From: Ktedonobacteraceae bacterium
Lineage (GTDB): Bacteria > Chloroflexota > Ktedonobacteria > Ktedonobacterales > Ktedonobacteraceae
Assembly: GCA_035653615.1 (NCBI GenBank)
Contig: DASRBN010000011.1
Coordinates: 1 to 64,000 of the forward strand
Direction of reading: 5' to 3'
Length of the DNA: 64,000 nucleotides
Shown here: positions 1,787-46,116 of the stretch, in pieces
How positions within the stretch are numbered: the first letter of the stretch is position 1
Layout of the letters: every line of letters begins with the position of its first letter
Translations under genes and position numbers: made by a program
The notes under the pieces: model-generated
What the model was told of the DNA's origin: nothing
The model's input: the letters and a program-made list of their open reading frames with translations, nothing else
The model's database searches: none

Positions 1787-2048
1787 TGCGTTGGTCGTTC
1801 CTTTCTGCTATACTTCGATGGAGTTCAAGAGAAGAGAAGGCGACGAGCGGTGCGGCGGAACGGACAAGGTTCCTGCTCGTGCTCACGGGTAGTCCCGTGG
1901 CGACACTCGGGTCTACTGGATGCACCGGGATCAGCTTGAAACACGGACTTGGGTGTACCAATCCCGATCGATCTCGCCTCGTCGCTTTCTTCGTTTGTTA
2001 GTATATACCTTTTTTCATGCTCGGGTCTGACGCGCCGCGTCATTGCGC
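1787..2048 (-). ncRNA. Candidate bridge RNA region of the IS110 element
   Basis: This non-coding end lies upstream of the transposase, where IS110-group elements encode bridge RNA. On the plus strand TTGAAAC (1936-1942) equals the right half of the disrupted repeat plus the TT core, and CAATCCC (1959-1965) is the complement of the left half (GGGATTG). In a minus-strand RNA both guides carry the core at their 3' ends and are separated by a short ACAC/GUGU stem, the layout expected of a target-binding loop. Further on, TTCCTGC (1870-1876) matches the TT-plus-left-end donor junction beside a 6-bp hairpin (1884-1899), resembling half of a donor-binding loop; the partner donor guide is not convincing. 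RNA ends, fold and transcription are inferred. Confidence 0.5.
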
Positions 2049-4877: not shown

Positions 4878-4914
4878 GGTTAAATGGCCTGGGATGCCCG
4901 TTGGGGATTGAAAC
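4878..4914 (+). repeat. Orphan CRISPR repeat
   Basis: This 37-base sequence is identical to the array repeat at 176 except for two transitions (C to T at repeat position 3 and T to C within the GGCTTGGG segment). The full GGGGATTGAAAC end is kept. It stands alone, about 2.7 kb beyond the array, in the gap between the PHP gene and a small gene; no second copy lies one spacer length away on either side. It may be a relic of a longer array or a captured repeat. Confidence 0.88.
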
Positions 4915-33554: not shown

Positions 33555-34691
33555 ATGGCCACGAATAAACGAGACTATTATGAGGTACTGGGTGTATCGC
33601 GCAGCGCGAGCGAAGAGGAACTGAAGAAGGCCTTTCGTCGTCTTGCCAAGCAGTATCATCCCGACGCCAATAAAGAGCAGGGAGCGGAAGCCCGCTTTAT
33701 TGAGATCAATGAAGCTTATGAAGTATTGAGCGATCCGCAAAAGCGAGCTGCCTATGACCGCTATGGGCACGCGGGCGTGAATGGTTCGGGGACAGCGGGC
33801 TTCGGTGACTTTGCCGGATTCAGCTCGATCAATGATCTTTTTGAAACATTTTTCGCGGGTGCTACGACCTCGCAGCGCCGTTCAGGCATGCAGCGAGGCG
33901 CGGACCTCAAATATGAACTGACGATTACCTTTGAAGAGGCGGTGTTTGGTTGCCAGAAAGAGATTGAACTGCCGCGTTGGGAGACCTGCTCAGTATGTCG
34001 CGGCAGTGGCGCGCAACCTGGCACTTCCACGGCTCGCTGTTCCTCCTGCCAGGGCACGGGCGAGATTCGCCGCGTACAGCAGTCGATCTTTGGGCAGTTT
34101 GTCAACGTGACGATGTGCGAACGCTGCCACGGCGAGGGGCGCGTGATTACGACGCCTTGTGAGAAGTGTCGCGGGCAGGGACGCGTGCGCAACAATCGCC
34201 GCGTGGTGGTCAATATTCCTGCCGGCGTGGATGACGGCATCAATGTGCGCGTGACAGGCGAGGGCGAGGTAAGCGCTCGCGGTGGGACGCCGGGAAATCT
34301 GTATGTGATTCTTACGGTCAAGCCGCATCCGTTCTTCAAACGCCAGGGCAACGATATCCTCTACGAACTGCCGATTAGCTTTACGCAGGCAGCGCTTGGC
34401 GACGAAGTTGAGGTGCCTACTGTCGATGGCAAGACGACAATGCTCAAGATTCCGGCAGGCACGCAAAGCAATCGCTCGTTCCGTCTCAAGGGTATGGGTG
34501 TGCCGGTTGTGCATAGCAACGCTCGCGGCGACCAGCACGTTATCGTGAAAGTGGTAACGCCCACCAACCTGACCTCGGAGCAGAAACGCCTGCTCGAGGA
34601 GTTTGCTCGCCTGGAACGCGAACAGGCCGAACAAAACGACAAAAACATCTTCCGCAACTTGTTTGAAAAGACAAAAGATGTGTTCCAATAA
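33555..34691 (+). CDS. dnaJ: Chaperone DnaJ (Hsp40 type I)
   Basis: The 378-residue protein has the J domain ([23 protein letters not shown] in [10 protein letters not shown]), a short Gly/Phe region, and four zinc-finger motifs [24 protein letters not shown] and CEKCRGQG. C-terminal substrate domains follow ([19 protein letters not shown]). It stimulates DnaK ATPase and hands over clients. The ATG at 33555 (AAAGGA upstream) gives the family N-terminus [13 protein letters not shown], so the longer frame from 33531 is not used. It is third in the heat-shock operon, about 200 bases after dnaK. Confidence 0.96.
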
Positions 34692-34717
34692 AACAGGCGT
34701 TTTATTGGAACACATCT
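34676..34717. terminator. Perfect palindrome between convergent genes
   Basis: AGATGTGTTCCAATAAAAC (34676-34694) and GTTTTATTGGAACACATCT (34699-34717) form a 19-bp stem with loop AGGC. It contains the dnaJ stop codon and the end of the convergent EEP-family gene. It should act in both directions, although the U-tracts lie inside the stem. Confidence 0.75.
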
Positions 34718-35682
34718 AATTCTTCGATATCTTTCCGACTCCTGTCGTACGGGGCATTCTGCGCGCGCTCTCCAAACTCAGCGAGTACGGGATAGTGATC
34801 GCTGGCTTTCTCCCCCGCAATACCATTTCCCCCGGTGATTACCTTGCAGCACGTGAGACGTCGCGTCATTTCTGGGCTGGCAAAGATATAATCGATGCGA
34901 CCGGCAGGTGCGCCCGCAGGACAGGTGAATCCGGAGGCGCGCGGGTTCGTATAGCGAAAACTGTCGGTATAGCCCGCTTTCAGTAACAGGTCAATGCTGC
35001 CGCGCGGCGCATACAGCGTCACCAGCTCGTCAAAAATCGCCGATAATATCCTGCTGCGAGGGATAGCTCGCAGCAGCGGGTTGAAGATGTGGAAAGCAGG
35101 AGGTACCACAAAATTCAGGTAGGGATGCCCACTGTTGACCAGGGCATCTTGCTTGTAGCGCCGATCCAACATCGCGAGATAGCCCAGCAACGCGCTGCCT
35201 TTCAAGCGATCTCCTGGCGCGAGCGCGTTGAAATCGCCCATCAAAAGATGAGGCGTTCCTTGTAAGGGGGCCATGATGCGCAAAATTTCACGCACTTCAG
35301 TACGCCGGATGCTATCGCCGGCTCGTCCATGACTAAAAGATGCCGTCAGGTGCGTCACAAAGACCGTAAGCTGACTGCCATCCTTTTCCTCAACACACAC
35401 CTCTAAAAGTGGCTTTGTCAGGATATCAGGGCGTGTATGCACCTGCGTTCGCACAATGGGAAGACGGCTGAGTACGGCTGCCTGCCAATCCGTGCTATGC
35501 TGCCCGCTGGCGCTCATCCGGTATTCCATGCCCAGCCGCTCTGCCAGCGTTTCAACGACCCGTGGATTCGTGGCCTCGACAAGGCCAACAACATCAGGGT
35601 CAGCAGATCGAATCATCGTAGTTATCTGATCAATGCGAGGTCGACCACCAACGAGGATATTATATGAAAGTACGCGCGTCAT
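34702..35682 (-). CDS. Endonuclease/exonuclease/phosphatase (EEP) family hydrolase
   Basis: The 326-residue protein carries the EEP core: RVLSYNILVGGRPRI (catalytic Asn), VVGLVEATNPRV (metal Glu), TVFVTHLTASFSHGRAG, LLMGDFNALAPGDRL, GRIDYIFAS and KASDHYPVLAEF (catalytic Asp-His). The fold cleaves phosphodiester bonds in nucleic acids or phospholipid/inositol phosphates; this branch is undetermined. No signal peptide, so cytoplasmic. Convergent with dnaJ. Confidence 0.88.
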   Translation of the reverse strand: MTRVLSYNILVGGRPRIDQITTMIRSADPDVVGLVEATNPRVVETLAERLGMEYRMSASGQHSTDWQAAVLSRLPIVRTQVHTRPDILTKPLLEVCVEEKDGSQLTVFVTHLTASFSHGRAGDSIRRTEVREILRIMAPLQGTPHLLMGDFNALAPGDRLKGSALLGYLAMLDRRYKQDALVNSGHPYLNFVVPPAFHIFNPLLRAIPRSRILSAIFDELVTLYAPRGSIDLLLKAGYTDSFRYTNPRASGFTCPAGAPAGRIDYIFASPEMTRRLTCCKVITGGNGIAGEKASDHYPVLAEFGERAQNAPYDRSRKDIEELDVFQ

Positions 35683-44203: not shown

Positions 44204-45265
44204 CTATTTTATATAGCGTAAGAGATCGGCCCGTTCCTCTTGCAGGCGCGGGGGAAGTTCGGCCATGGTGTAGTCGAAGAAGCTGTCAGGGCGCATGGGT
44301 GGTGTGGCTTCGGCCTCCCGCACGGCTTCGTTGATCTCTTCTTCCAGGTCTGTGACGATTTGCTGCACCTGTTCCTCTGTCAGCAGGCCGCGCCGGATGA
44401 GAAAACGCTGGAAACGCGCGATAGGGTCTTTGGCACGCCAGGCCTCGACCTCGGCAGGGTCACGATAGCGCGTTGGATCGTCGGCGGTAGTGTGCGCGCC
44501 AATGCGATAGGTGAGTGTTTCTACCAGCGTTGGCCCCTCTCCAGCGCGAGCGCGTTCGACGGCCTGCTGCATCACATCATAGACGGCGAGGATATCGTTG
44601 CCGTCCACCAGTACGGAAGGGACGCCGAAACCGGCCCCACGCGCGGCCAGATATTGCGCGGCGCTCTGCTTATGCCGGGGAACGCTGATAGCCCAGCCGT
44701 TATTCTGCACGACCAGCACAACGGGCGCACGAAAGACGCCCGCGAAGTTCAGCGCCTCGTTGAAATCGCCCTCGGATGTAGCCCCATCGCCGCATACACC
44801 CACCGCTACCGCCGGGTCGCCCGCTATTTTGGCGGCCATTGCCAGACCAACAGCATGCAGCATCTGGGTGCCGATCACAATTTGAATGGGCAGGCAATGC
44901 GTCTCGCCCGGCCAGTTTTCAGGCGTGAAGCCGCGAAACGAGTAAGCGACCGTGGCTATAGGAACGCCCTTGACAAATAACGAGGCGATTTCGCGGTAAG
45001 AGGTGGCCAGCCAGTCCTGCGTTTGCAGAGGCGCGGCCAGTCCGACCGCCGTGGCCTCCTGCCCAACCAATGAGCCAAAGGTGGTAGCGCGCCCCTGCCG
45101 CTGCATGGCGATGATTTTATTGGAAAAGAGGCGACCAAGCTGCATATAGCGGTAGAGCGCCAGCATGCGTTCATCGCTCAGGTCGGGTATTGCTCCCACC
45201 ACGTTTCCATCGGGATCGAGGATCTGATAGGGAACGAGGCCAGGGTCAATTTGTTGTATGGTCAT
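44204..45265 (-). CDS. 2-oxo acid dehydrogenase E1 component, alpha subunit
   Basis: The 353-residue subunit has the TPP-binding motif GDGATSEGDFNEALNFAGVF ending in NNGWAIS, the start region YRYMQLGRLFSNKIIAMQRQG, LPIQIVIGTQMLHAVGLAMA and the phosphorylation-loop-like TYRIGAHTTADDPTRYRD. The ATG at 45265 has AAGGAG five bases upstream, better than the GTG at 45271. It lies nine bases after the leuD stop, so leuC, leuD and both E1 genes may form one operon. The E2 and E3 partners are probably those at 5682-8408. Confidence 0.94.
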   Translation of the reverse strand: MTIQQIDPGLVPYQILDPDGNVVGAIPDLSDERMLALYRYMQLGRLFSNKIIAMQRQGRATTFGSLVGQEATAVGLAAPLQTQDWLATSYREIASLFVKGVPIATVAYSFRGFTPENWPGETHCLPIQIVIGTQMLHAVGLAMAAKIAGDPAVAVGVCGDGATSEGDFNEALNFAGVFRAPVVLVVQNNGWAISVPRHKQSAAQYLAARGAGFGVPSVLVDGNDILAVYDVMQQAVERARAGEGPTLVETLTYRIGAHTTADDPTRYRDPAEVEAWRAKDPIARFQRFLIRRGLLTEEQVQQIVTDLEEEINEAVREAEATPPMRPDSFFDYTMAELPPRLQEERADLLRYIK

Positions 45266-45274
45266 GCTCACTCC

Positions 45275-45895
45275 TTAAGAGGCAAACACCCAGGGAGCCT
45301 CTTGTTTCCTTTTCGCTTCGTAGGCCGCGATCTCATCCTGGTGGCTCAGCACCCAGCCGATATTGTCCAGGCCTTGCAGCAATGCGTTTTTGCGGAAATT
45401 GTCGATCTCGAAGTGCAATTCGCGCCCGCCCGGTGTGGTAATCGTCTGGGAGGCAAGATCAACATGCAGGCTATAGCCCTCGGTTGCCTCGACCTCGGCA
45501 AAGAGCTCCTGGACAATGGCTTCGTCCAATGTGACGGGCAGGATGCCGTTGTTAAAGCAGTTGTTGTAGAAGATATCGGCAAAGCTGGGCGCGATGATGC
45601 AGCGGAAGCCATAATCGCGAATAGCCCAGGGAGCATGCTCGCGCGATGAACCGCAGCCGAAATTATCGCCTGTCAGCAAAATAGTGGCACCCTGGTAGCG
45701 TGTCTGGTTCAGCGGAAAATCAGGATTGGGTACTTTGGAATCTTTATCGAGGTAGCGCCAGTTGGCGAAGAGGACATTTTCAAACCCGCTGCGCCGGATG
45801 GTTTTGAGGAAACGAGCGGGAGTTATTTCATCGGTGTTGACGTTGACGCGATCAAGCGGCACAACAAGGCCTGTGAATGGTTTGTATGGTTCCAT
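45275..45895 (-). CDS. leuD: 3-isopropylmalate dehydratase small subunit
   Basis: The 206-residue protein has the small-subunit swivel domain: [73 protein letters not shown] and a C-terminal [20 protein letters not shown]. With LeuC it isomerises 2- to 3-isopropylmalate in leucine synthesis. GGGGTGA before the ATG supports the start. It is separated from leuC by a 220-base gap holding a large palindrome. Confidence 0.95.
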
Positions 45896-45948
45896 ATTTT
45901 TTCACCCCTTTGTGATCATTTGATGGAGTTATAAATCAAACCGGCACC

Positions 45949-46065
45949 GGGGCCGATCAATCGGCGCTGCCCGCGATAAATCGGGGCCTACGGCTGTGCC
46001 GTAGGGGCCGGGCAGTCCTGCCTGGGGGACAGGCGTACCGCGCCCATCGCCGATTGATCGGCCCC
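45949..46065. repeat. Folded palindromic element between leuC and leuD
   Basis: Outer arms GGGGCCGATCAATCGGCG (45949-45966) and CGCCGATTGATCGGCCCC (46048-46065) are exact reverse complements. Inside, GGGGCCTACGGC pairs with GCCGTAGGGGCC, so the whole 117-base segment folds as nested hairpins. It resembles a small non-autonomous dispersed element more than a terminator. Confidence 0.75.
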
Positions 46066-46116
46066 ACGCGGTTGACCGGCTCATTTACTACTCCCATCAT
46101 TATGCCCTTATAACAT

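Follow-up and report, generated by a model that had tools for sequence, protein, structure and literature searches.

How did a mobile element come to lie precisely within one repeat of an array of clustered regularly interspaced short palindromic repeats (CRISPR)? The question is raised by a stretch of 64,000 nucleotides from Ktedonobacteraceae bacterium (the window; GenBank assembly GCA_035653615.1, contig DASRBN010000011.1, positions 1 to 64,000, forward strand), near whose start an insertion sequence (IS) of the IS110 family splits such a repeat. Very probably, this is an RNA-guided element that encodes, in its upstream end, a bridge (seeker) RNA whose programmed target is the 3′ end of the host CRISPR repeat. 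This reading is carried by sequence evidence: the guides match the repeat and, across the family, vary with the insertion site, the stems show compensatory changes, the empty site is exact and the recombinase is intact. At the sequence level, the guides are specificity determinants throughout the family, and in the present element their sequence is that of the CRISPR repeat. New here are the predicted programming of a bridge-RNA transposon for CRISPR repeats and its unusual guide order and RNA position; the literature searched, with subscription papers and preprints outside its scope, holds no description of CRISPR repeats as bridge-RNA targets.

An IS110 element within a CRISPR repeat

The genome (6.6 Mb in 44 contigs) contains 217 repeats within three mismatches of GGCTAAATGGCTTGGGATGCCCGTTGGGGATTGAAAC, the repeat of the short array that lies at the contig end, where the window starts. 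Of the six repeats of this array, the element occupies the fourth; two more follow it, and the final one is degenerate. The features concerned are:

176–2193, + strand: short CRISPR array, with repeats at 176, 250, 323, 399 (interrupted), 2092 and 2165 (degenerate)
399–430, + strand: left portion of the split repeat (GGCTAAATGGCTTGGGATGCCCGTTGGGGATT), with the TT core as its last two bases
431–2048, − strand: IS110-family element without the flanking core; in the sense of the transposase, the left end is at 2048 and the right end at 431
542–1786, − strand: intact DEDD transposase of 414 amino acids, the sole gene of the insertion
2049–2055, + strand: TT core and the remaining, right-hand portion of the split repeat (GAAAC)

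The insertion is 1,620 bp long (431–2050, counting one core) and has TT at both ends. A preliminary description of this DNA had placed one end of the element at 2048, which is correct, the TT core following at 2049–2050; the other end, at 431, is corroborated by the donor guide introduced below, which matches it. When the element is excised in silico, 399–430 joined to 2051–2055 gives the perfect repeat with no target sequence lost. As proposed, two motifs of the element, TTGAAAC and CAATCCC, correspond to the two halves of the disrupted repeat together with the TT core.

The transposase matches the NCBIfam model NF033542 (“IS110 family RNA-guided transposase”) with an E value of 2e-91 and 306.6 bits against a cut-off of 140, as well as the Pfam domains PF01548 (DEDD_Tnp_IS110, RuvC-like, N-terminal; E 2e-32) and PF02371 (Transposase_20, C-terminal; E 4e-26). 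It is related, remotely, to the recombinases of IS621 and ISCro4 (phmmer E 2.5e-15), and alignment to IS621 shows that the DEDD acidic residues and the catalytic-serine position are kept. Having both domains and an insertion at a short core without target loss, the element belongs to the IS110 family in the broad sense.

Given that the genome holds more than 200 near-identical repeats and that arrays recombine, the element could have been brought into this array from another repeat by homologous recombination or spacer rearrangement. We consider this unlikely, as the flanking 5′ and 3′ parts fit a single repeat exactly, and such a transfer would only mean that the guided insertion had taken place in another CRISPR repeat.

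Guide segments and the insertion sites of sister elements

If the element was guided to the repeat by an RNA, where do the guides reside? Upstream of the transposase lies a non-coding region of 262 nt (1787–2048), whose + strand contains TTCCTGC (1870–1876), TTGAAAC (1936–1942) and CAATCCC (1959–1965), each at the position first reported for it. In a minus-strand RNA, that is, in the sense of the transposase, they are read in the order GGGATTG (1965–1959), GTTTCAA (1942–1936) and GCAGGAA (1876–1870), and the target in the same sense is GTTTC-AA-TCCCC. Whether each guide addresses the left or the right side had been left open; three of the labels are now set, and the fourth guide is without covariation. 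The predicted RNA and its parts are:

1848–1975, − strand: predicted bridge RNA, target-binding loop followed by donor-binding loop, from the family alignment and consensus fold
1929–1975, − strand: predicted target-binding loop, closed by a GATC(G)/(T)GATC stem with compensatory changes
1959–1965, − strand: 5′ target guide (RNA GGGATTG), right-target in the sense of the transposase, complementary to core AA and TCCC
1936–1942, − strand: 3′ target guide (RNA GTTTCAA), left-target, identical to GTTTC and core AA
1907–1917, − strand: 5′ side of the donor loop, expected place of the right-donor guide, unconfirmed and without covariation
1879–1906, − strand: predicted inner hairpin of the donor-binding loop (GTGTCGCCACGGGACTACCCGTGAGCAC), with compensatory changes
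1870–1876, − strand: left-donor guide (RNA GCAGGAA), equal to the right end GCAGG and core AA

An RNA from the + strand was rejected as a candidate, as its segments would start, not end, at the core. An Rfam scan returned weak matches to CRISPR repeats only, and no bridge-RNA family.

The most telling evidence comes from sister elements, collected by transposase searches of the class and phylum together with one viral contig. The 59 elements with readable upstream regions reduce to 39 distinct ones (38 sisters and this element), and these 39 regions were aligned without reference to flank matches. The alignment places a variable segment at each of the three motif positions; in the 38 sisters, the segments at the homologous position differ from those of this element and mostly match the sister's own flanks. 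Segments aligned with GTTTCAA, for example, match their own left flanks as TCTACGAA, ATGGGTAA, AGTTCGAA, TCCATAAC and TTTCATAG. Across all 39 elements, the longest match of the left-target guide averages 7.5 nt to the element's own left flank versus 3.6 nt to the flanks of other elements, and the observed sum of 292 is reached by none of 10,000 permutations, the best of which gives 182. The right-target guide matches the reverse complement of its own right flank over 4.6 versus 3.1 nt (0 of 20,000 permutations), with a flat same-strand control (p=0.90), in elements pre-filtered for left guides that match over 6 nt. The left-donor guide, tested under the same filter, matches its own right end over 7.1 versus 3.9 nt, a test that is partly circular because the right ends were located partly through this match; donor-guide matches of 7–9 nt beside the target flank can nonetheless be read directly. 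Taken in RNA order (the positions of GGGATTG, GTTTCAA and GCAGGAA), the three segments track the right flank of their own element, its left flank and its end, respectively, at permutation p<1e-4, and the opposite-strand controls are flat. Because the later tests were pre-filtered, the left-guide claim rests on the unfiltered comparison of 39 elements. The core belongs to the 5′ guide in some sisters only. The comparison with sister elements proposed at the outset thus found that those inserted elsewhere carry different segments, matching those other sites.

The predicted structure agrees with these roles. In a consensus fold of 26 sequences, the 5′ and 3′ target guides occupy opposite sides of one internal loop, with an inner stem-loop standing between them, while a second stem-loop unit contains a conserved hairpin (TGTCGC...GAGCAC) with the donor guide GCAGGAA on its 3′ side. 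Standard base pairs are formed in 90% of the base-pair cells across the 26 sequences, and changes on both sides of the helix occur in both loop-closing stems (GC/AU/CG in the target-loop stem, AU/CG/UA in the donor-loop stem) as well as in the inner stems, AU, GC and CG being exchanged for one another. The fold was derived from a global alignment; a MAFFT alignment of the bridge RNAs, in which the target-loop stem was shifted, was set aside. Covariation within the family therefore assigns the two target segments to the two sides of a single internal loop and GCAGGAA to the 3′ side of another, upholding the earlier suggestions that the minus-strand guides end at the core within a target loop and that the target loop precedes the donor loop. 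What is found, then, is an RNA region at the element's end with two predicted internal loops, two target guides and one donor guide that covary, and compensated stems.

Several observations weigh against a programmed insertion. The element is present as a single copy, even though more than 200 repeats of the same kind are available in the genome, and no sister sharing both guide and conserved box turned up when about 85,000 species genomes were scanned for the exact pattern; CRISPR-repeat targeting rests, for this element, on one insertion. The 5′ side of the donor loop, compared with the left end on both strands, gives no covariation signal for a right-donor guide. Furthermore, when this sequence is folded alone, its two target guides are partly paired to each other in the minimum-energy structure, and the open target loop is that of the family consensus. 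The proposal that the element is programmed for CRISPR repeats gains from the covariation of guides across the family and is tempered by the single event and by the lack of a sister sharing the guide. Exact-pattern matches to this guide and box in GTDB genomes and IMG/VR numbered 48; none lies near a related transposase, and all were read as chance.

Could the protein, rather than the RNA, select the target? CRISPR repeats are partly palindromic, and some IS110/IS1111 elements are known at repetitive extragenic palindromic (REP) or attC structures (PMC11187229), so that the transposase might recognize a stem-loop of the repeat, the RNA matches being secondary. This appears quite improbable, since the guides of the sisters differ and match their differing flanks, and since in Thermus (see below) IS1000 copies with closely similar transposases and altered guides sit at altered sites. 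That the element landed in the repeat by chance, the matches being coincidental 6–7-mers, is scarcely credible: only one insertion is known and each motif alone has a 1–2% likelihood in the region (GTTTCAA in 1.4% and GGGATT in 1.9% of 20,000 dinucleotide shuffles of the non-coding region), but the two never fell within 45 nt of each other, all three motifs co-occurred in none of these shuffles, and in the sisters, the segments aligned with these motifs match insertion sites that differ from this one.

An RNA-guided insertion would proceed as follows. The RNA would be transcribed in the direction of the transposase, and the two sides of its target loop would pair with opposite strands of GGGGATT/GAAAC (the slash marking the insertion point), while the 3′-side guide of the second loop would match the element's own end. 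By analogy with IS621 and ISEc21/ISEc11 (PMC11208160, PMC11208158, PMC11187229), an excised circle would express the RNA, whose two loops would hold the target and the circle junction; the DEDD/Ser recombinase would exchange strands at the core, and the circle would be inserted at TT in one orientation, without target loss. Expression of the RNA, formation of the circle, catalysis and a possible effect on immunity belong to the inferred part of this account. The insertion point falls within the last eight bases of the repeat (ATT/GAAAC). These bases form the 5′ handle of CRISPR RNAs (crRNAs). The repeat would thus be split inside the stretch that becomes the handle.

Guide order and place among IS110 and IS1111 elements

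Does this element fit a published subgroup? In the aligned family, the right-target guide comes first and the left-target guide second, and the RNA region lies upstream of the transposase in this element and its sisters. According to Siddiquee et al. (PMC11187229), IS110 elements have the RNA region upstream and the bottom-strand match first, whereas IS1111 elements have it downstream and the top-strand match first; the guide order is left-right in ISEc21 and IS621 (PMC11187229, PMC11208158). Measured against the IS110 group (IS621/ISEc21-like), the upstream RNA region agrees but the left-before-right target order fails; measured against the IS1111 group, the top-strand complement does come first but the RNA region is not downstream. 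As judged from sequence alone, the family combines an IS110-like upstream RNA with the IS1111 guide order and is an unreserved member of neither subgroup.

The likeness to IS621 and ISCro4 (IS110 group; PMC11208160, PMC11208158; PDB 8WT6, 9T56) extends to a recombinase with DEDD and PF02371 domains, an upstream RNA, a target loop that precedes the donor loop, and guides that flank an internal loop and read to a dinucleotide core. The element departs from IS621 in its right-left target guides (left-right in IS621) and in its core, TT/AA instead of CT, and from both IS621 and ISCro4 in its remote transposase of 414 amino acids and in its target, a CRISPR repeat. With IS1111-type elements (ISEc11, ISPa11, ISKpn4; seekRNA, PMC11187229) it shares an RNA in which the top-strand complement precedes the bottom-strand match, but its RNA lies upstream, not downstream, of the transposase gene. 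The subterminal inverted repeats of IS1111 elements (11–13 bp), expected 7 bp and 3 bp inside the two ends, were not seen there by eye, no dedicated test being made. A short inverted pair is asymmetrically placed, with ATGAAAAT at the left end (near 2011–2018, family-wide) and ATTTTC at the right end (near 441–448). The family would add a subfamily with upstream RNA and IS1111 guide order, whose covarying set provides rules for reprogramming. One sister exists as two copies head to tail (G097:C285:20432-23152); their transposase genes score equally and are separated by 267 bp, which looks as though one copy had inserted into the other's end.

CRISPR-linked IS110 elements in Thermus and beyond

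Is targeting of CRISPR repeats confined to this family? In Thermus thermophilus HB8, plasmid pTT27 carries two IS1000 copies at the same point of the repeat in two different arrays, IS1000A lying between cas1 and cas2:

33918–35191 (within L130): IS1000A
44807–46077 (within L130): IS1000B

An earlier study found one end of IS1000 to be identical to CRISPR repeats and took this to mean that CRISPR had recruited pieces of the IS (PMC6352166); this reading probably has the direction reversed. Further IS1000 copies, gathered from Thermus plasmids and genomes, occupy about 13–14 distinct sites in CRISPR repeats or isolated repeat copies of several sequences, and many of the copies at CRISPR-repeat sites lie in visible arrays. 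Their flanks read GTCG/GTTG/GTTT-CA on the left and CA-ATCCCCTTACGGGG..., CA-ATCCTCTACGAGG... and others on the right. The upstream region contains a left guide GGTTGC and a right guide GGGATTG, in the IS621 order, and a donor guide (A/C)GTATC that varies together with the element end. Relatives in which GACTTTG replaces GGGATTG (three copies) are found at CA-AAGC sites, and one with GGGGCTG (one copy) at CA-GCTCC, the changed guide pairs (left/right) being ATGTTGC/GACTTTG and GGTCAC/GGGGCTG. These relatives with changed guides at correspondingly changed sites (Thermus L138, L157, L160 and L163) are apparent cases of natural reprogramming. By hand counts in which site independence is approximate, two genomes sharing one flank, about 14 of 16 GGGATTG copies are located in CRISPR repeats versus none of the four with changed guides (hypergeometric p 0.003). 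No IS1000 relatives were found in Meiothermus hypogaeus.

IS1000A and IS1000B resemble the Ktedonobacteraceae element in their insertion into CRISPR repeats, in the same orientation, with a GGGATTG guide. They differ in a transposase only 27% identical, in the left-right guide order, as in IS621, in a TG core, and in the exact site, GGGGATTG/CGAC versus GGGGATT/GAAAC, one base from the homologous position. As the guides and sites read, two distantly related lineages of the IS110 family, whose guide orders are opposite, insert into the same repeat end at points one base apart and with the same orientation. The Thermus case shows that CRISPR-repeat targeting exists as a behaviour, and CRISPR arrays can, it appears, be homing sites for RNA-guided transposons. 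Somewhat less securely, we favor the broader view that the crRNA-handle end of the repeat (GGGATTG...) is a recurrent address of bridge-RNA transposons, to which at least two distant IS110 lineages have been independently programmed. If so, the repeat end, being conserved, non-coding, multi-copy and common to hosts, would offer a safe harbour, and insertion would also break arrays. Roles would then be reversed, the memory locus of RNA-guided immunity becoming the programmed target of an RNA-guided transposon, and it becomes testable whether such elements disarm arrays or merely use them as safe sites.

A further sequence link to CRISPR repeats is offered by ISC1229, an IS110 element of Sulfolobus, whose 3′ flank carries sites for the CRISPR-repeat-binding protein Cbp1, according to the available passages of PMC10883916, which contain no guide analysis.

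Other features of the array and the genome

The genome has two Cas1 genes of the type I-D kind, one with Cas4 and adjoining an array whose repeats share the same 3′ end, and the other with the type I-D proteins Csc2, Csc3 and Cas3. An array of 39 repeats (G000:C44) has as neighbours Cas1d, Cas4, a group II-intron-like reverse transcriptase and then a ThiF/E1-like protein. The spacers of the interrupted array show no match to the element longer than 9 nt. The degenerate last repeat is broken at 2193–2206 by CCTGCGAATTGCGC, which equals the last 8 bases of the element (TTCGCAGG) joined to its first 6–7 (GCGCAAT); by our own estimate, such an end-to-end junction is expected by chance about 0.003 times in the window, and it may be what is left of an earlier insertion that lost its interior. 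Lastly, 2.7 kb past the array, a lone CRISPR-like repeat with two mismatches stands at 4878–4914 without neighbours.
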